A stretch of 15,571 nucleotides of DNA from Candidatus Heimdallarchaeota archaeon. GTDB taxonomy: Archaea > Asgardarchaeota > Heimdallarchaeia > Heimdallarchaeales > Heimdallarchaeaceae. Location: contig JAGLTP010000134.1 of NCBI GenBank assembly GCA_023135215.1, positions 1 to 15,571 on the forward strand. Direction: 5' to 3'. Below are positions 4,710-15,490 of the stretch, piece by piece. The first letter of the stretch is position 1. Every line of letters begins with the position of its first letter. A program made the translations under genes and the position numbers. The notes below the pieces were generated by a model. It ran no database searches and had not been told where the DNA came from. It worked only from the letters and a program-made list of their open reading frames with translations.

Positions 4710-5426
4710 TCACTTATAGAGCGTTTTATCAGAAATTTCTGCATTACTGAATGCTCTTTTACGCCTTAAACAGGACTCACATTTACCACAATGAATAGGT
4801 TTTCCATCATTTGTCCAATCTTCTACATTATAACAGGAAGAAGAAAATTCAAGATTTGCTCCTTTCTTATCAAGATAATTTACAATGTTGTTTTTTAATG
4901 AATCATGAAAAGGTGCTTGAATTCTCACTTTGTTCATACACCCTAAAGTAAGCGATTCGTTCATTTTATCAACAAATTCTTTTGTATTATCAGGAAATGT
5001 TTCTCCCTCTTCTAAATTTGCCCCAAAAACAATATCAACAGGCTCTTTCATACTATCGGCAAAAGATGCTGCAATAGACAAAAACAAGAAATTTCTACCA
5101 GGAACCCATACTTGTTTCGCTGTTTCATTTGTAATTGCTTTCCGATCAAGTTCAGAGAAATTTGATAAGGAAGGAGGGTCTGTTTCCCCTTTTGATAACT
5201 TGGAACCTGCAAACTTAGCAAACTCCCCTAGAAAGGGAATTGAAATAATCTTCCCTTCCAAAGATAGAAGAGAACTATATTTTTGGTTTACTCTTTCTAT
5301 AACCTCATCCTCTTTGCTCCCGTAAAGCAAACTCAATAGTATAACTTTCTCATACCTATCTATAGCCCAATAAACACAAGCAGTGGAATCCAATCCTCCA
5401 GAAAACAAAACAATTGCTACACTCAT
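4710..5426 (-). CDS. queC: 7-cyano-7-deazaguanine (preQ0) synthase
   Basis: Converts 7-carboxy-7-deazaguanine to preQ0 using ATP and ammonia, the last step of the pathway encoded by this operon. The N-terminal PP-loop motif SGGLDST (9-15) binds ATP. VPGRN (108-112) and EEGETFPDNT (139-148) match the QueC core. The four zinc cysteines are C198 and C213, C216, C219 in HCGKCESCLRR. At 238 aa it is full length. It is the last gene of the operon, 35 nt after queD, and has its own AAGGGGAAG Shine-Dalgarno-like sequence. In archaea preQ0 is then inserted into tRNA position 15 by ArcTGT and turned into archaeosine; neither of those later genes is in this window. Confidence 0.96.
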   Translation of the reverse strand: MSVAIVLFSGGLDSTACVYWAIDRYEKVILLSLLYGSKEDEVIERVNQKYSSLLSLEGKIISIPFLGEFAKFAGSKLSKGETDPPSLSNFSELDRKAITNETAKQVWVPGRNFLFLSIAASFADSMKEPVDIVFGANLEEGETFPDNTKEFVDKMNESLTLGCMNKVRIQAPFHDSLKNNIVNYLDKKGANLEFSSSCYNVEDWTNDGKPIHCGKCESCLRRKRAFSNAEISDKTLYK

Positions 5427-5461
5427 AATCTTCCCCTTCTATGATTTCCGTTTCCACCTAT

Positions 5462-5920
5462 TCAATCTTCTCCTGAATATACAACAGTGCTTGTTGGGGT
5501 TTCAGACATTATAATTGTAATTTTAAATTGCGGGTATTGCTTTTTTATCAAGTTATGGATATGTTTTGAAAACAGCTCAACTGTTGTTGATTCTATTGGA
5601 ATAAAGACTACATCCTCTTTTGGCAAACGGTAAAGCTTTCCTTCACAAGTATTAATGATTATTTGCTTATCCTTAGTTTCAATTTGTAAATCTTTGCTCT
5701 CTGATGGTATCAAGATTTTGTGATCAAACTTTTTTAACATTTTTATCATATCTGATTTAAACAAACCAAAATCTATAATCATATTATTTTCATCAAGTTC
5801 TCCCTCAATCTCAATTTCTATTTGATAATTGTGTCCATGAATTTTCGCACATTTGTCATGTCTTACTAACATGTGTGCAGAAGCTATGGTTAACTTATCC
5901 CCTGAAATCCTTAATTTCAT
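5462..5920 (-). CDS. queD: 6-carboxy-tetrahydropterin synthase (PTPS family)
   Basis: Converts 7,8-dihydroneopterin triphosphate to 6-carboxy-5,6,7,8-tetrahydropterin. The zinc ligands are H16 (in SAH), H28 and H30. The catalytic Cys is C24 in CAKIHGH, which has the CxxxHGH spacing typical of QueD as opposed to mammalian-type PTPS. FDHKIL (65-70) carries the Asp/His pair, and E140 in the C-terminal MSETPTS motif would bind the pterin. The length of 152 aa is slightly long: an insert around 71-100 replaces the short loop of bacterial QueD. The gene lies 9 nt downstream of the DUF366 gene and has AGGGGA as Shine-Dalgarno, so it is part of the preQ0 operon. Confidence 0.94.
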   Translation of the reverse strand: MKLRISGDKLTIASAHMLVRHDKCAKIHGHNYQIEIEIEGELDENNMIIDFGLFKSDMIKMLKKFDHKILIPSESKDLQIETKDKQIIINTCEGKLYRLPKEDVVFIPIESTTVELFSKHIHNLIKKQYPQFKITIIMSETPTSTVVYSGED

Positions 5921-5929
5921 ATTTTTCCC

Positions 5930-6562
5930 CTAAATTGATTTGGTTTTCGATACATCCTCTTTTACCATCTGTAGTTCATCAATATACTGTTTAACTATAG
6001 ATATTATCCATTCCTTAAGTTGACTATCTTCAAATTCGAGTTCTAATAATCCTATTGCAGTTACATGCTGTGGAAACCCCGAACTTCCAACATTTAATCC
6101 AAAGTGTATTTTACTATTAGTTACTCCTACTGAAGCAATTGCAACATTTAGCTTTTTCTCACCAATGTATATGTCTGTTCCTTTTCTCTGGGCTTTTATC
6201 CCCTTTAAATTCAATTTTTCCAAGATTATTAATGTAAGCAATCGAAGACGATAATATTCTATCTCTAAATTTGGGGGTTGAATATCGAATTCTTCAATAA
6301 TTATATGTAAACTATCATCGGAACTTATCAGAATCTCGGCTAAATGTGATTCTCTTTGAATATCCTTGATATCTATCATTTCTGCAGGAGATAAGCTCAT
6401 TCCACCTCTAAAAACGAGGATGCTATTTCCTAAAACGTTGTAATTATTTGCTATATATTGGCTGGATAACTGTGAACCATCATATATTATGTTGTTCTCG
6501 AAATCTTCTACAACAATATTATAAGATCGATACTCAATCTTCTTCAATTTGTTCAAATCCAT
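5930..6562 (-). CDS. DUF366 family protein in the preQ0 operon
   Basis: The function is not established. Family features visible: YDGSQLSSQY (27-36), NVLGNSILVFRG (44-55), a DDSLHIIIEEFD segment (about 82-93), and a C-terminal half with KLNVAIASVGVTNSKIHFGLNVGSSG (about 137-162). That is the DUF366 pattern found mainly in archaea and some bacteria. The start codon lies inside the end of the cyclohydrolase gene (29 nt overlap in a different frame) and queD follows after 9 nt, so it is translationally coupled to pathway genes. This implies a role in pterin or deazapurine metabolism, such as an accessory to the cyclohydrolase step or binding of an intermediate, but that is inferred only from position. 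No signal peptide or membrane segment is visible. A start further downstream is possible but none has a better ribosome site. Confidence 0.85.
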   Translation of the reverse strand: MDLNKLKKIEYRSYNIVVEDFENNIIYDGSQLSSQYIANNYNVLGNSILVFRGGMSLSPAEMIDIKDIQRESHLAEILISSDDSLHIIIEEFDIQPPNLEIEYYRLRLLTLIILEKLNLKGIKAQRKGTDIYIGEKKLNVAIASVGVTNSKIHFGLNVGSSGFPQHVTAIGLLELEFEDSQLKEWIISIVKQYIDELQMVKEDVSKTKSI

Positions 6563-7502
6563 TTAATTGCTCTTTTAGCTTCTTCAGTGTTGTCCTTACT
6601 TCAGCTACTGCATTATGCTGATGTATACTTTCATAGTTTATCTGTTTAACTGCAATAATTGTTTCCTCTGGATGCTCAGTGAATCTTTCAACTACCTTTT
6701 GTAAAATAGAACGAACAACATCTTCTACGAAAACTGGATTCTGATGAGCATAAAGAACGACAGCCTGTTCATCTTTTCTTTTTAATACTTCATGAACAGG
6801 AGAACTCATTGAATTTTCAAGAATTTTAATAATATCTTCTAGTTCTACTCTTTCAGCATCTCTTGGTTGTTCAAAAAGTAAAATTGATTTTGATCTTTGA
6901 TTATGCGCAGCTATGGGAACAAGTTTCAAGATTTTATCAATATCGTCTGTGCTGAAACCTTCTTTCAACAATCTTTCTTTAGTAATATCTTTTGATAATT
7001 CTTGTGAGCATGGACAAACAGTAGTTCCCTCCACCTCTGCACCAATAATCTTTGTGATCTTTATTTCATTATTAGTTCTTTCTGCATAAGCCCCAGATCT
7101 AAGTACATGAACACTGGATTTATTTTCTAAAATTGCTTCTGAAAAGGTTTCCATTTCATAATCAGCACTAAGATTCACCTCAGCAAAATTAGCTCCTGGT
7201 TGCACTTCAATAACCTTTTCCGCAATTTTAGCGCATAACTCTTCACTATCAGTTATTACTTCACTACTTAATGTAGAGATTACCTCATTGATAGCTTCAA
7301 TGTTTCTTGACATGTGGATGCCTCTTTTACTCGGGAGTAGATCAACAAAAACATCTATTCTAGCAGATAATTCATTATATATTCCTCTTCTTTTTCTTCG
7401 AATTATCTTTGGTACATTACAAACCCCCACTCTACGTAATCCTATCTGGATTTTTGATTCATGTGCTTGAACATCGGATAATTCTTTACTTTTTAAATCC
7501 AT
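6534..7502 (-). CDS. mptA: GTP cyclohydrolase of the GCYH-IB/MptA (FolE2) family
   Basis: Opens the GTP ring to give the pterin precursor of preQ0. Family signatures: SDVQ (9-12), the HMSR motif (63-66), TVCPCSQE (161-168) with the metal-binding Cys pair C163/C165, VPIAAHNQR (195-203), and SIHQHNA (292-298). At 322 aa it matches MptA/FolE2 (about 300-320). Bacterial FolE2 yields dihydroneopterin triphosphate; archaeal MptA with Fe(II) yields the 2',3'-cyclic phosphate used for methanopterin. Because queD, which needs the triphosphate, sits in the same operon, FolE2-type chemistry is implied, but residues alone do not settle it. AAAGGT, ahead of the ATG, serves as Shine-Dalgarno. The gene starts 12 nt after queE ends and its last 29 nt overlap the DUF366 start. 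Confidence 0.94.
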   Translation of the reverse strand: MDLKSKELSDVQAHESKIQIGLRRVGVCNVPKIIRRKRRGIYNELSARIDVFVDLLPSKRGIHMSRNIEAINEVISTLSSEVITDSEELCAKIAEKVIEVQPGANFAEVNLSADYEMETFSEAILENKSSVHVLRSGAYAERTNNEIKITKIIGAEVEGTTVCPCSQELSKDITKERLLKEGFSTDDIDKILKLVPIAAHNQRSKSILLFEQPRDAERVELEDIIKILENSMSSPVHEVLKRKDEQAVVLYAHQNPVFVEDVVRSILQKVVERFTEHPEETIIAVKQINYESIHQHNAVAEVRTTLKKLKEQLNGFEQIEED

Positions 7503-7514
7503 TTTAATTACCTT

Positions 7515-8321
7515 TTATAATATATTCAATAATTTGTGCATTTGAACTGATAATCCTATCTTATCAGGAGGGAGATGTTCTGCAGCTATTCCTGAAAGCT
7601 CAATTATTTGTTCCCATGTTGGTTGCAAGATTTTAGATTTAGCTGGTGGAGTAACAATTTGAATAACTATCGGTACCCCTATTTTACCACATAATCTTGC
7701 TATTACTTCAAAATCTTCTTTTCTTGAAGATTTAGATATTACAGTTTTTGCAAAGACTTTAGTGTTGTTCTTTAATATTTTACACATTTCAATCTCCCTC
7801 TCAACTAATAAATCCCACTTGAGTGATGCCTCTGCACTACGATCTTTAACATCAACACAAGCGAAATCAACTAAATGTGTAACTCGTTTCAAAAAGTCTA
7901 TATTATCGATATAAGCTGTTTCTAGATACGTCTTATAATTCTCTTTTTTGAGAAGAATAAGCAACTTTTCCAGAAATTCAGGCTGATGTAGAGGTTCTCC
8001 ACCAGTGAAGCTAATTGAATGCAAATCATTAGTTGTTAAGTTTCTTATGTTTTTCAATACATTTTCAGCTGTTACTGGGTTGTTTATGTTTACAAAGGAT
8101 TGTGAACCTGCTTTTCTTTCTATCAGGCATTGCTTAGGTTGATTTGCTTTTGCTTCCGGTGAATCACACCATATACAACCTTTTGTTCCTAGCAATCCTT
8201 GAGCGAGAGGACATCCTGCTAACCTAATGAAGATTTGTCGCAATCCATAACAGCTACCTTCTACTGAAGCTCCTTCTCCTTGGAAACTTGAAAATATCTC
8301 CTGTATATAACCCTGTGACAT
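7515..8321 (-). CDS. queE: 7-carboxy-7-deazaguanine synthase (radical SAM), atypical cluster motif
   Basis: Radical SAM enzyme that rearranges 6-carboxytetrahydropterin to 7-carboxy-7-deazaguanine. The N-terminus EIFSSFQGEG (8-17) is the QueE hallmark that binds substrate, followed by RQIFIRLAGC. The [4Fe-4S] ligands are C37, C49 and C52, spaced CX11CX2C instead of the radical SAM standard CX3CX2C; the extra loop reads PLAQGLLGTKG. A CX14CX2C variant is known in Burkholderia QueE, so lengthened loops are tolerated. SFTGGEP (104-110) binds the SAM amino group. At 268 aa it is longer than the roughly 210-240 aa of many QueE. It is the first gene of the operon and has a TATA box about 26 nt before the ATG, so the transcript is probably leaderless. 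Confidence 0.94.
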   Translation of the reverse strand: MSQGYIQEIFSSFQGEGASVEGSCYGLRQIFIRLAGCPLAQGLLGTKGCIWCDSPEAKANQPKQCLIERKAGSQSFVNINNPVTAENVLKNIRNLTTNDLHSISFTGGEPLHQPEFLEKLLILLKKENYKTYLETAYIDNIDFLKRVTHLVDFACVDVKDRSAEASLKWDLLVEREIEMCKILKNNTKVFAKTVISKSSRKEDFEVIARLCGKIGVPIVIQIVTPPAKSKILQPTWEQIIELSGIAAEHLPPDKIGLSVQMHKLLNIL

Positions 8322-8400: not shown

Positions 8401-8904
8401 CTATAAGCTATATCTTCCGATTTGTTCAAATGTAGCATATTTTTCTTTATACTCTATAACTTTTCTTGCATATTCCTTTGGATCTCTCTTCATTAAATTG
8501 GCAGCAGTTGAATTAAGTGGATCATCAGGATTTGGATTACTCAAAATGAAACGAATGGATTCAATAACATCCACTAAATTATTAGCTGGTGTCCAATCGA
8601 CACCAAGAACACCAACACAAATTCTCGTATCAAAAACATTTGCATGAAAAACCTTGGTAAGCATTTTTACTTTTGGTGGTTTAAATGGATATTCTCTTGG
8701 TATATCAATTTCTAAAACAAACACCCCCCCCTCATACAAACCCGCTCCAAAGATAAATCCTCGCCATAGTAGAGTATTTCCATCAACTGGCTTAAATGTA
8801 GGTAATTCCTTTTTAAGCTCATTTGCTTCTATTGCGATTCTTGGCCAGAATTCATCTTCAGATAACATATACTCATAACCTTTGGCATTTGCTAATAATC
8901 TCAA
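8401..8904 (-). CDS. Ubiquitin-conjugating (E2) enzyme
   Basis: E2 proteins carry ubiquitin on a cysteine and pass it to a target or E3. The UBC fold is readable in order: the N-terminal helix (about 23-34), the YPFKPPKV loop (72-79), HAN (87-89) in place of the usual HPN with the Asn for the oxyanion kept, the catalytic C96 in RICVGVLGVDW, W104, and the NPNPDDPLN turn (123-131), then two C-terminal helices. All conserved landmarks are in place, so activity is likely. The Pro-to-Ala change in HPN is notable. The start is a TTG with AAAGGT 6 nt ahead; no ATG or GTG start lies upstream before an in-frame stop. The first in-frame ATG (residue 13) would remove a 12-residue extension not needed for the fold, so either start is possible. 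It lies 10 nt after the 54-aa ORF. No ubiquitin, E1, RING or Rpn11 gene is in the window. Confidence 0.93.
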   Translation of the reverse strand: MRLLANAKGYEYMLSEDEFWPRIAIEANELKKELPTFKPVDGNTLLWRGFIFGAGLYEGGVFVLEIDIPREYPFKPPKVKMLTKVFHANVFDTRICVGVLGVDWTPANNLVDVIESIRFILSNPNPDDPLNSTAANLMKRDPKEYARKVIEYKEKYATFEQIGRYSL

Positions 8905-8914
8905 GGTTATACCT

Positions 8915-9079
8915 TTAATAGACTCCTGATTTACCCTGTTGCATCTCTAACAATATCATAAGTACTGCTGAGATTAATCCTTTTTGATCTCCAGCTATCT
9001 TTCTGAATTCTTCTCTTTCTAGCATCAATGCAAGAGATCGCCATCTCACTAATAACTCTACGATATCTCTTTCGCTCAT
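8915..9079 (-). CDS. Small helical protein (54 aa) upstream of the E2 gene
   Basis: An ORF of 54 codons, ATG to TAA, reading MSERDIVELLVRWRSLAL and ending in GKSGVY. It has no recognised family. It is amphipathic and probably two helices (about 4-27 and 31-47), rich in Arg/Glu, with no Cys, no C-terminal Gly-Gly and no membrane segment, so it is not a ubiquitin-like modifier. Support for a real gene: GAGG lies 4 nt before the ATG, a TATA-like TTAATAAAT element is centred about 34 nt upstream (giving a leader of roughly 8 nt that just contains the GAGG), and the E2 gene follows after only 10 nt with its own AAAGGT. It therefore appears to be the leader gene of an E2 operon. Whether it acts with E2 is unknown. 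Confidence 0.65.
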   Translation of the reverse strand: MSERDIVELLVRWRSLALMLEREEFRKIAGDQKGLISAVLMILLEMQQGKSGVY

Positions 9080-9228: not shown

Positions 9229-9828
9229 ATGAGTAGCCCAGAAGAAATGCTAGTTCAACTAATAAACTCAATAAACAAATTGTCGAATCTTGTGCAAAAT
9301 GTAAATGAAGCAATAAATAAGCTATCAACCCAGATATCAAAGCTAGATACTAAAATTGATGGAATGACAACTAAAAGAGGTAAAAAATCAGCTCCACCGC
9401 CTGCTGCAGTGGCAGCACCCTCCCCCGCCGCTGAATCAGCACCACCACCTGCCGCAGAGGCAACTCCACCTCCTCAAGAGTATGTATCACCAGGTGTTGA
9501 AGAAACAGGAGACGTTTCATCTTCAGATGCAGCAGATGCAGCTTTTTCCGCGGTTTCTGCAAAATTCAAACACATTACTCAAATGATAAGCCCTCAATCC
9601 AGTTGTGGCTCTATAACTAAAATGCTAGAGGAACTCAGAGATGAGGTAGAGACTCATGTTGGTATGTCACCAATGTTATATGAACTTAATTCTTGGGTTC
9701 AAAGAATAGGCAAAATGCCTGAGTCTGATATTCTCTTACCAGACGTGCATAGCGAGTTAGTTGAGAAACTGGATGATTGGCTAAATAGAGTAACAAAAGC
9801 TATTCATTTGAAGTATCAAGAGGGGTAA
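9229..9828 (+). CDS. Coiled-coil protein with Pro/Ala-rich linker and helical C-terminal domain
   Basis: No family recognised. Residues 1-45 form a predicted coiled coil with a heptad pattern of Leu/Ile/Val in MLVQLINSINKLSNLVQNV onwards, suggesting oligomerisation. Residues about 50-85 are a low-complexity linker with KRGKK followed by repeated APPPAA/ATPPP units. The matching DNA (about 9390-9480) is far richer in G+C than its surroundings. Residues about 98-199 form an Ala-, Ser- then Leu-rich helical domain with one Cys (C126). There are no membrane segments. The architecture (oligomerising helix, flexible linker, helical head) recalls scaffold proteins, but no function can be given. It is followed by the zinc-ribbon gene after 86 nt on the same strand. 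Confidence 0.85.
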   Translation: MSSPEEMLVQLINSINKLSNLVQNVNEAINKLSTQISKLDTKIDGMTTKRGKKSAPPPAAVAAPSPAAESAPPPAAEATPPPQEYVSPGVEETGDVSSSDAADAAFSAVSAKFKHITQMISPQSSCGSITKMLEELRDEVETHVGMSPMLYELNSWVQRIGKMPESDILLPDVHSELVEKLDDWLNRVTKAIHLKYQEG

Positions 9829-13142: not shown

Positions 13143-13694
13143 TTATCTACCAGAAGATCTTCTTCTGTAATTTACCATTGCTGATGCAACTAGTGCTGTA
13201 ACAAACTCCCCTACTCCTTCACCTGTTAAAGCTGAAGTCTCTCTATATCTACATCCTAATTTTCGACTTATACGCTCTGCATCTTCTCTGCTTATCTCAC
13301 GAACAACATCTGTTTTGTTTCCAACTAGAGTAATATCTACTTCACGATCTTGTTCACGTAGCTCTCTTATCCAATTAGCGCATTCTCTAAATGATTCCTT
13401 ACTTGAAACATCGAAAATAATAGCAGCAGCATTAGTACCTGGGTAAAGAAGTTTTCTTACAACACCGAATCTTTTCTGACCAGCCATATCATAAAATAAA
13501 GCTACGGCTTTCCCCTTTTTTGTTTTAAAAGAATATGAGTGAAATTCAGCTCCACAAGTTGGTTTATATTTTTGTGAGAAAGAATTTTCCGTTAATCTTT
13601 TACAAATTGACGTCTTGCCAGATTTACCAGGTCCACAAATAGCCAACTTATAGATATCATAATCTCTGAATTTTACTTGTATCCTAGAGCCCAT
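13143..13694 (-). CDS. Ras/Rab-like small GTPase
   Basis: A 183-aa molecular switch of the Ras superfamily, as expanded in Asgard archaea. All five G motifs are intact: G1 GPGKSGKT (21-28), G2 T46 in KPTCGAEF, G3 DMAGQ (69-73) with the catalytic Gln as in Ras Q61, G4 NKTD (126-129), and G5 ETSALTG (152-158). Intrinsic GTPase activity is therefore expected. The C-terminus is basic (RRRSSGR) with no Cys for prenylation, so any membrane contact would be electrostatic or through a partner. The nearest eukaryotic group (Rab, Arf or Ras) cannot be fixed by eye; the DxAGQ form and the WIREL helix look Rab/Ras-like, not Arf-like. A TTTTAAT box lies about 37 nt upstream. The 196 nt on the far side, to the next gene, hold only divergent promoters. 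Confidence 0.95.
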   Translation of the reverse strand: MGSRIQVKFRDYDIYKLAICGPGKSGKTSICKRLTENSFSQKYKPTCGAEFHSYSFKTKKGKAVALFYDMAGQKRFGVVRKLLYPGTNAAAIIFDVSSKESFRECANWIRELREQDREVDITLVGNKTDVVREISREDAERISRKLGCRYRETSALTGEGVGEFVTALVASAMVNYRRRSSGR

Positions 13695-14770: not shown

Positions 14771-14791
14771 AGATAAATTAGCTATTTATCT
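14771..14791. terminator. Inverted repeat at the convergent gene junction
   Basis: AGATAAAT (14771-14778) and ATTTATCT (14784-14791) are an 8-bp perfect inverted repeat with a 5-nt loop, overlapping the stop codon of the TRAP-beta-like gene and 26 nt past the dehydrogenase stop. The stem is AT-only except for one G-C pair and thus weak. On the + strand it is followed by a pyrimidine run (TCTTCTTATA), so a role in ending both genes is possible but unproven. Confidence 0.3.
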
Positions 14792-15469
14792 TCTTCTTAT
14801 ATAGAGGACTACTGAAGCAACAACTGCAGCTATAATTGGCGTAAATGCAAAAACCATCCATCCCCAACCGATTTTGATTTGTTTCCCTAATCTCCAATTA
14901 GGAATAGAACTATCCCAAACATCCTCTTCTGAATAGAATTCCAGGAGCAAATCAAGTTGACTCCTGATTTCATTCAAATCTGGATAATAATCATAATATG
15001 TCATATCTGCCCTTGGTAAACTTTTAGATCCACTTTCACTACTAGTTACATTATAAAAGAAAATGAATTCCGTACCATTTACTATCTGTGAAATATTTAA
15101 TGATAGTACATCTTCTGTTAGATAACCATATGTTATCTCCATTGCAGTGAATCCACTTTCTGATGACGATTGCATTGGAGTTTCTAATGTAATGTTACCG
15201 TCATCAAGGGAACCAAATTCACATGAAGTTAGTTTTAATGATTCTATCTCAGTAAGGTTTAGTGTTACAGTCACATTAGTAATTGTATAGTTCAAGAAGT
15301 TTTTAATAAAAATGCCAACAGTAAAATTCGAATCTACTGGCACTCTGTCCTGCATTTTTTGCTGGCCAAATACTAATTCATTCGAAGGAATGTAACTGTT
15401 AGTTGGTTTTATGAATAGCATAGTCAAGATTAATAGAGTAATTAATGCAACTTGGGTGTTTCTTTTCAT
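14786..15469 (-). CDS. Secreted-type single-pass membrane protein, TRAP-beta (SSR2)-like topology
   Basis: A 227-aa precursor. A signal peptide with basic MKRN and a hydrophobic run (about 7-20) is followed by an outside domain of predicted beta-strands (about 45-145) and a mixed region (about 150-195). One transmembrane helix (about 203-224) and a short basic tail YIRRR follow. Eight N-x-S/T sequons (N48, N60, N65, N71, N92, N125, N131, N140) suggest heavy N-glycosylation. The shape (cleaved signal, immunoglobulin-like outside domain, one helix near the C-terminus, basic tail) and the strand pattern resemble TRAP-beta of the eukaryotic Sec61-associated complex, reported in some form in Asgard archaea; this match is by eye only. 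The start at 15469 has AAGGAG 8 nt upstream; an in-frame ATG at 15490 has no such site. The TATA box is at about 15499-15512. Confidence 0.72.
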   Translation of the reverse strand: MKRNTQVALITLLILTMLFIKPTNSYIPSNELVFGQQKMQDRVPVDSNFTVGIFIKNFLNYTITNVTVTLNLTEIESLKLTSCEFGSLDDGNITLETPMQSSSESGFTAMEITYGYLTEDVLSLNISQIVNGTEFIFFYNVTSSESGSKSLPRADMTYYDYYPDLNEIRSQLDLLLEFYSEEDVWDSSIPNWRLGKQIKIGWGWMVFAFTPIIAAVVASVVLYIRRR

Positions 15470-15490
15470 TGTAAAACTCCTTGAAAGCAT

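Follow-up and report, generated by a model that had tools for sequence, protein, structure and literature searches.

A helical-unit protein family encoded beside an E2 ubiquitin-conjugating enzyme in Asgard archaea, a candidate accessory subunit of the enzyme

The window analysed here is a whole stretch of 15,571 nt from a Candidatus Heimdallarchaeota archaeon (contig JAGLTP010000134.1). Two neighbouring minus-strand genes are at issue, one coding for a 54-aa helical-unit protein (8915..9079; ATG 9079, stop 8915) and the other, directly downstream, for a 155-aa E2 ubiquitin-conjugating enzyme (8401..8868). The open reading frame of the E2 extends over 8401-8904 and gives 167 aa when read from a TTG, the numbering used for the residues that follow. 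It scores 113 bits with the PF00179 (UQ_con) profile, against a cut-off of 27 (1.1e-32). In an alignment of 36 rows, consisting of the window protein and 35 of 90 hits, C96 is invariant and H87, N89 and P124-L130 (PNPDDPL) are invariant or nearly so; the HxN motif reads HAN in the window and HPN in most other rows. The complete-looking E2 with its catalytic Cys and motifs, as the preliminary description had it, is thereby confirmed. Profile and catalytic residues identify the protein as a ubiquitin-conjugating enzyme E2, with predicted transfer activity. Relatives of the E2 at 83% and 76% identity bear the name Candidatus Heimdallarchaeaceae, and the order of the window genes is collinear with Asgard/Heimdallarchaeota MAG contigs, which places the window in a Heimdallarchaeaceae archaeon.

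The E2 most likely starts at the ATG at 8868 and not at the TTG at 8904. Most relatives in the 36 aligned rows begin at the Met of this ATG, 12 residues past the TTG start, or one residue before it. Furthermore, a GG upstream (8879..8880, minus strand; G51/G52) is invariant in 14/14 aligned loci and constitutes a putative ribosome-binding site, 11-12 nt from the ATG in the window and closer in some loci. With this start the catalytic residue becomes Cys84, and the spacer between the small-gene stop and the E2 is 46 nt (8869..8914, minus strand) instead of the 10 nt first described. In 22 co-directional relatives the spacer is 30-59 nt. The 46 nt of the window appear too short for an evident E2 promoter, and we infer co-transcription of the two genes at co-directional loci.

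Several other genes of the window deserve mention. Directly downstream of the E2, positions 4710-8321 hold a run of queC-like, queD-like, unassigned, folE2 and queE-like genes, a probable 7-deazapurine cluster (folE2 and radical-SAM by Pfam, the rest by eye). On the other side, a divergent gene (9229-9828) adjoins the small gene and is present in 23/23 window-type loci; its 199-aa product is rich in proline and alanine and has a coiled-coil-like N-terminus. Farther away are a Ras-family small GTPase (13143-13694; PF00071, 127.5 bits), as expected for Asgard archaea, and a secreted-looking protein (14786-15490) that carries a membrane segment at its C-terminus.

The small gene has its own signals. 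A TATA box, TTAATAAATC (9115-9106, minus strand), has a TTAATA core that is invariant in 14/14 aligned upstream regions, and a GAGG Shine-Dalgarno-like site (9086-9083, minus strand) occurs as GAGG or GAAGG in 10/14 aligned loci. The 54-aa frame directly upstream of the E2, with both signals, is found as originally described. A search of 5.8 billion proteins with the 54-aa sequence returns 23 matches from 23 candidates, the window's own included. Codon comparison with 23 relatives gives pS of 0.59-0.85 and pN of 0.035-0.25 for 21 of them, the remaining two being near-identical to the window gene. The small gene is under purifying selection and is a real protein gene. Length by itself is only mildly unusual and unconvincing, since mononucleotide shuffling of the region attains the observed ATG frame of 57 codons in 31 of 2000 trials (counted from an in-frame ATG upstream of the 54-aa start); the judgement relies on conservation. 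A frame that is so short, attained in those shuffles and devoid of a family hit, might suggest a spurious ORF or an upstream leader of the E2 rather than a protein gene, but this explanation is already refuted by the strength of the selection at the amino-acid level, by the homologues and by the occurrence of the small gene as a gene of its own on the opposite strand in locus L022 and in a second clade.

The 54-aa protein contains neither Cys nor His, so that the zinc ligands of RING and other zinc E3s are absent. No profile of Pfam or NCBIfam reaches its cut-off for the small protein or its family, and at these cut-offs Pfam likewise gives no hit to the Vps23 steadiness box, Vps28 or known helical families for the small protein. 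Its family, apparently undescribed and seen mostly in Asgard archaea, is built from a two-helix unit of ~40 aa with the motif RWK/RWR...L...(G)(L/I)IAA, which the small protein also displays. The unit is present in one copy in Heimdallarchaeaceae and in two tandem copies in the second clade. Family profiles run over the best 80 of 99 E2 loci reveal the two-unit protein, of 86-88 aa, divergently upstream of the E2 in seven loci (L024-L027, L031, L032 and L040). The two forms align by hhalign with a probability of 94% (E 9e-8); the one-unit profile picks up the two-unit gene in 3/3 two-unit genomes searched, and the two-unit profile picks up the one-unit gene in 14/23 one-unit genomes (E <= 0.01).

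A profile search of the protein database, in which the best 7988 candidates were scored, gives 81 proteins at E <= 1, with 79 below 1e-8. Forty-two of these are 78-90 aa long (P0114-P0155), with the two-unit layout in all 21 that were aligned. The remainder comprises the one-unit set, distant single units of 51 aa, and the two-unit proteins P0162 and P0168-P0170 (98.7% against the two-unit profile). Most hits are unlabelled; the named ones come from Asgard MAGs, except for one Bathyarchaeia and one Zixibacteria label, which we suspect to be mis-binned. No eukaryotic match appears among the 7988 candidates scored in this one search. A structure model of the two-unit protein displays four predicted helices (pLDDT 88.2, pTM 0.77), and no convincing structural relative is found among the matches listed. 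When the two-unit profile was run against PDB sequences, a candidate relative, SufU, emerged (E 8.5e-5, best single stretch 0.0036); this match straddles the junction between the two units, is not listed with the family profiles A2, A7, A9 and A10, and is treated as chance. Likewise, a link between P0169 and the E2 of L061 was discarded, as P0169 is not found in the genome of that locus (G028).

Linkage to the E2 was followed by running the unit profile over 227 genomes from the same phylum as G014 (Heimdallarchaeota AB_125). Of the 43 genome-level matches, 30 are strong, 9 weak (E 0.0025-0.075) and 4 distant; a second, weak match is seen in two of the strong-match genomes. When the 34 strong and distant places are compared with the E2 matches listed, 30 have the unit directly upstream of an orthologous E2, on the same strand in 22 pairs and divergently in eight. 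The co-occurrence in relatives that the preliminary description had set as a test is thus borne out, and so is the intactness of the small gene: internal stops are absent from the 30 E2-adjacent matches, and two slightly longer matches in a separate search of 28 genomes carry one stop each. In the latter search the one-unit profile gives one match in 19 genomes and none in nine; the small gene is single-copy where checked. The term 'operon', used at the outset, suits the co-directional majority and does not suit L022, the two-unit clade and Hodarchaea, where the pair is divergent. L022 (Ca. Heimdallarchaeum endolithica), in which the surrounding genes are still of the window type, branches deepest among the one-unit loci sampled in the E2 tree, and the other 22 one-unit loci are co-directional. 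Adjacency has been kept through a change of orientation.

The four distant relatives are unlinked to the E2, indicating that the unit can exist without this linkage. Among the E2 matches listed, the E2 is on another contig in G176-G178, and G179 has weaker E2 matches only. Distant single-unit relatives of 51 aa, away from the E2, are at L122 8535-8690(-), L123 6535-6690(-), L124 6005-6160(+) and L125 5903-6115(+). By eye, all four lie near a gene for a secreted-looking membrane-anchored protein and, in L123-L125, also near a phosphoribosyltransferase-like gene; in L140-L142, of the two-unit clade, ubiquitin has a similar gene nearby.

How much weight adjacency carries depends on the independence of the loci. 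All 20 window genes occur in the same order in L001, and the 22 window-type loci are not independent because the whole neighbourhood is collinear, as one long syntenic block. Between clades the situation differs. When the 20 window proteins are searched by tblastn (E <= 1e-6), the E2 alone is found in 7/7 two-unit loci and in eight Hodarchaeal loci, so that adjacency between clades is stronger evidence than adjacency within the window-type loci. A comparison of gene content (ORFs >= 80 aa within 8 kb of the E2) agrees for the one-unit and two-unit loci, which share, among the loci listed, at most five for each pair of clades, only the E2 and its antisense frame. Among the same loci, Hodarchaeal and two-unit loci have a MetRS-like gene in common, with an ABC-type gene also shared by L041, and one Hodarchaeal E2 neighbour matches in one one-unit locus; there, the independence of the clade comparison is weakened. 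Despite a change of orientation and, from clade to clade, the disappearance of the remaining window synteny, the pair has stayed together. It could be argued that the two genes are conserved neighbours devoid of a functional link, an ancestral arrangement persisting by chance, as the single syntenic block, the shared MetRS-like gene and the unlinked distant units would allow. This is quite unlikely given adjacency in three clades that has outlasted reorientation, with the E2 as the sole tblastn match between window-type loci and those of either other clade.

The third of these clades is Hodarchaea, where family membership is reached through intermediates. The proteins P0171 and P0172 match the family profile at E 0.45-0.68 in 5.8 billion sequences, and by tblastn their relatives lie divergently upstream of the E2 in L041, L043, L044, L046 and L058; the same kind of ORF is found at L042, L045 and L047. 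With the database size set to 100,000, profiles connect P0171/P0172 to P0169 at 8e-8 and to eight Hodarchaeal proteins at 1.5e-6 to 0.027. Direct hhalign comparison of the Hodarchaeal set with the two-unit or P0169 set gives 1-7%, which is not significant. Collectively, the ~98-aa Hodarchaeal proteins are probable members of the unit family via these intermediates. A profile (A12) that combines six Hodarchaeal ORFs with P0171 and P0172 detects this form in 12 of the 227 genomes, and in 10 of the 12 it is divergent from the E2, with 246-309 nt between them; in the two exceptions a 100-N gap occupies the E2 slot (G053) or the match is weak and partial (G057).

The Hodarchaeal neighbourhood is that of a ubiquitin gene cluster. 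In 8/8 loci the E2 has a RING gene at a distance of 3.2-3.6 kb, and ubiquitin and E1 lie 5.5-6.3 kb away in 7/8, neither being found in L042. Hence the family has, in Hodarchaea, RING, ubiquitin and E1 as neighbours at distances of up to ~6 kb. The initial view of the small protein as the E2's only partner stands for the window, but it fails for this probable homologue in an extended ubiquitin cluster. At the window-type loci (L001-L022 and L030), tblastn (E <= 1e-4) detects no ubiquitin, E1 or RING beside the E2, and by this search the canonical archaeal Ub-E2-E1-RING arrangement is absent there. The ubiquitin and E1-type genes that the preliminary description proposed to seek elsewhere do occur in related genomes: ubiquitin and ThiF/E1 matches are obtained in 12/12 genomes searched, with ThiF also in 11/14 control genomes, ThiF alone being common in prokaryotes. 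In three one-unit genomes inspected, ubiquitin and E1 lie together at a separate locus, which by eye also has UEV-/ESCRT-like genes. A protein of the ubiquitin system that acts on another component (a RING E3, E1, ubiquitin or a substrate), its linkage to the E2 being a remnant of the cluster, could account for the Hodarchaeal arrangement and for the other two clades, where RING, ubiquitin and E1 are not found near the E2 and ubiquitin is elsewhere. This alternative seems unlikely, as the gene adjoins specifically the E2 in both clades where the cluster has dispersed.

Most Aigarchaeal relatives, and those from Hermod-, Baldr-, Odin- and Njordarchaea, have the canonical cluster, with the E2 flanked by ubiquitin and E1. 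The E2 has therefore probably departed from this cluster in the partner-bearing clades, a direction inferred from these relatives. In a tree of 76 E2 rows (81 before removal of the partial L063 and of exact duplicates), every partner type makes up a single group, with supports of 100/99 (one-unit), 100/99 (two-unit) and 100/100 (Hodarchaeal); the deeper branches uniting the three groups are weakly supported, and at least three label changes are needed. No partner is detected at Kariarchaeota-like and related E2 loci, whose rows are placed between the group of one-unit loci and that of two-unit loci; there, the partner was either lost or has diverged beyond detection.

Other proteins adjoin the E2 where the small partner is missing. 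A helical-looking protein of 79-125 aa is encoded divergently, about 200 nt upstream of the E2, in L028, L033 and L039, and a same-looking one downstream in L023 and L029; by their likeness to the eye, these possibly constitute a second E2-neighbour family. The 118-125-aa neighbours (L023, L028, L033 and L039) were considered for the unit family and set aside, the unit motif not being seen by eye. Secreted-looking proteins encoded beside the E2 in L023, L029 and L039 have counterparts among the ORFs of window-type loci, perhaps in the gene at 14786-15490 of the window.

The persistence of the E2 beside a small helical gene makes the small protein a good candidate helper of archaeal ubiquitin tagging. 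Our preferred explanation is that it is an accessory subunit of the neighbouring E2 (adaptor or regulatory, such as an activator or anchor), acting as a four-helix tandem or homodimer, a reading to which we give a probability of roughly 0.45. The two-helix unit would be used once in Heimdallarchaeaceae, probably in a homodimer, or twice in tandem in the second clade. Either form would lead to the same compact four-helix body, predicted by modelling for the tandem and expected by analogy upon homodimerization of the one-unit protein. Given the gene linkage seen in the genomes, this body may attach to the E2 without a covalent bond and modulate its activity or location, possibly by holding a substrate or an E3 or by stabilising E2~ubiquitin. 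In a single-chain AlphaFold model of the small protein and the E2 (from L005, with the intervening stop read as Ser), E2 pLDDT is mostly >90; the small part, covered by only three alignment rows, has pLDDT of about 50. At this confidence, and with a model lacking PAE, no interface is claimed. Short helical elements that bind an E2 away from its active site and raise its activity exist in Cue1 (U7BR) and gp78 (G2BR). These elements reside in membrane-bound E3s or adaptors and are not two-helix repeats; the likeness is one of description and offers an analogy only for how the small protein might work.

A regulatory role at the E2 promoter, on transcription or RNA, would offer another explanation for the divergent arrangement, seen in 18 of 40 adjacent pairs with 222-309 nt between matches. 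Basic pI values (9.3-9.5) are obtained for the two-unit P0114 and P0116 and for the protein of the Hodarchaeal locus L041, as such a role might favour. But pI is 6.2 for the one-unit form, 6.3 for P0169 and 5.5 for P0172, Pfam and NCBIfam recognise no DNA-binding family, and in the 22 genomes where the gene precedes the E2 on the same strand the protein would regulate its own operon, which makes this role improbable.

Comparison with known systems helps to place the accessory-subunit reading. The Caldiarchaeum-type operon groups Ub, E2, E1 and a small RING, with Rpn11 nearby, according to the portions of PMC5654768 covered here. Its E2 is about 40-55% identical to that of the window, which lies outside such an operon and has as neighbour a helical protein outside the named components. 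For the ubiquitin-ESCRT system of Heimdallarchaeota AB125, two E2-like proteins with a catalytic Cys and two UEV candidates are reported in the covered portions of PMC9192718; the lineage is the same, and the AB_125 genome carries the gene pair of the window (L020). These portions of PMC9192718 and PMC5654768 do not mention the small E2 neighbour. ESCRT neighbourhoods are surveyed in PMC10936438, likewise covered in part. Small hairpins of helices, or bundles of four, also occur in an Asgard ubiquitin-ESCRT context in the steadiness box of ESCRT-I and the C-terminal helical bundle of Vps28 (parts of PMC10936438 and PMC9192718), but Pfam gives the small protein no hit to these families and no ESCRT gene is recognised at the locus. 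Judged by title or abstract, none of the papers listed deals with a small E2 neighbour in Asgard archaea. The family is apparently absent from print, as far as titles, abstracts and parts of PMC9192718, PMC5654768, PMC10307638 and PMC10936438 extend.

What is new is a conserved component of a known ubiquitin system, with a helper role predicted from its sequence and gene context. Heimdallarchaea are closely related to eukaryotic cells, and Asgard ubiquitin systems are used to reconstruct the origin of eukaryotic ubiquitylation. Lists of Asgard components come largely from homology to eukaryotic parts, and a conserved E2 neighbour lacking a Pfam match, and lacking a eukaryotic match in one profile search, is of the kind that such lists miss. 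The small protein is tractable for direct assays of E2 binding and activation with cascades like that of Caldiarchaeum, already reconstituted (PMC5654768, in the part covered here). A bolder and unlikely proposal sees in the family a dedicated E2 cofactor of two-helix units, independent of RING and evolved in Heimdallarchaeia, which would form its four-helix body by duplication or dimerisation and would have replaced the operon-borne RING as the constant partner of the E2. If so, the ubiquitin system of the closest relatives of eukaryotes would have a core subunit that is absent from models of its origin.
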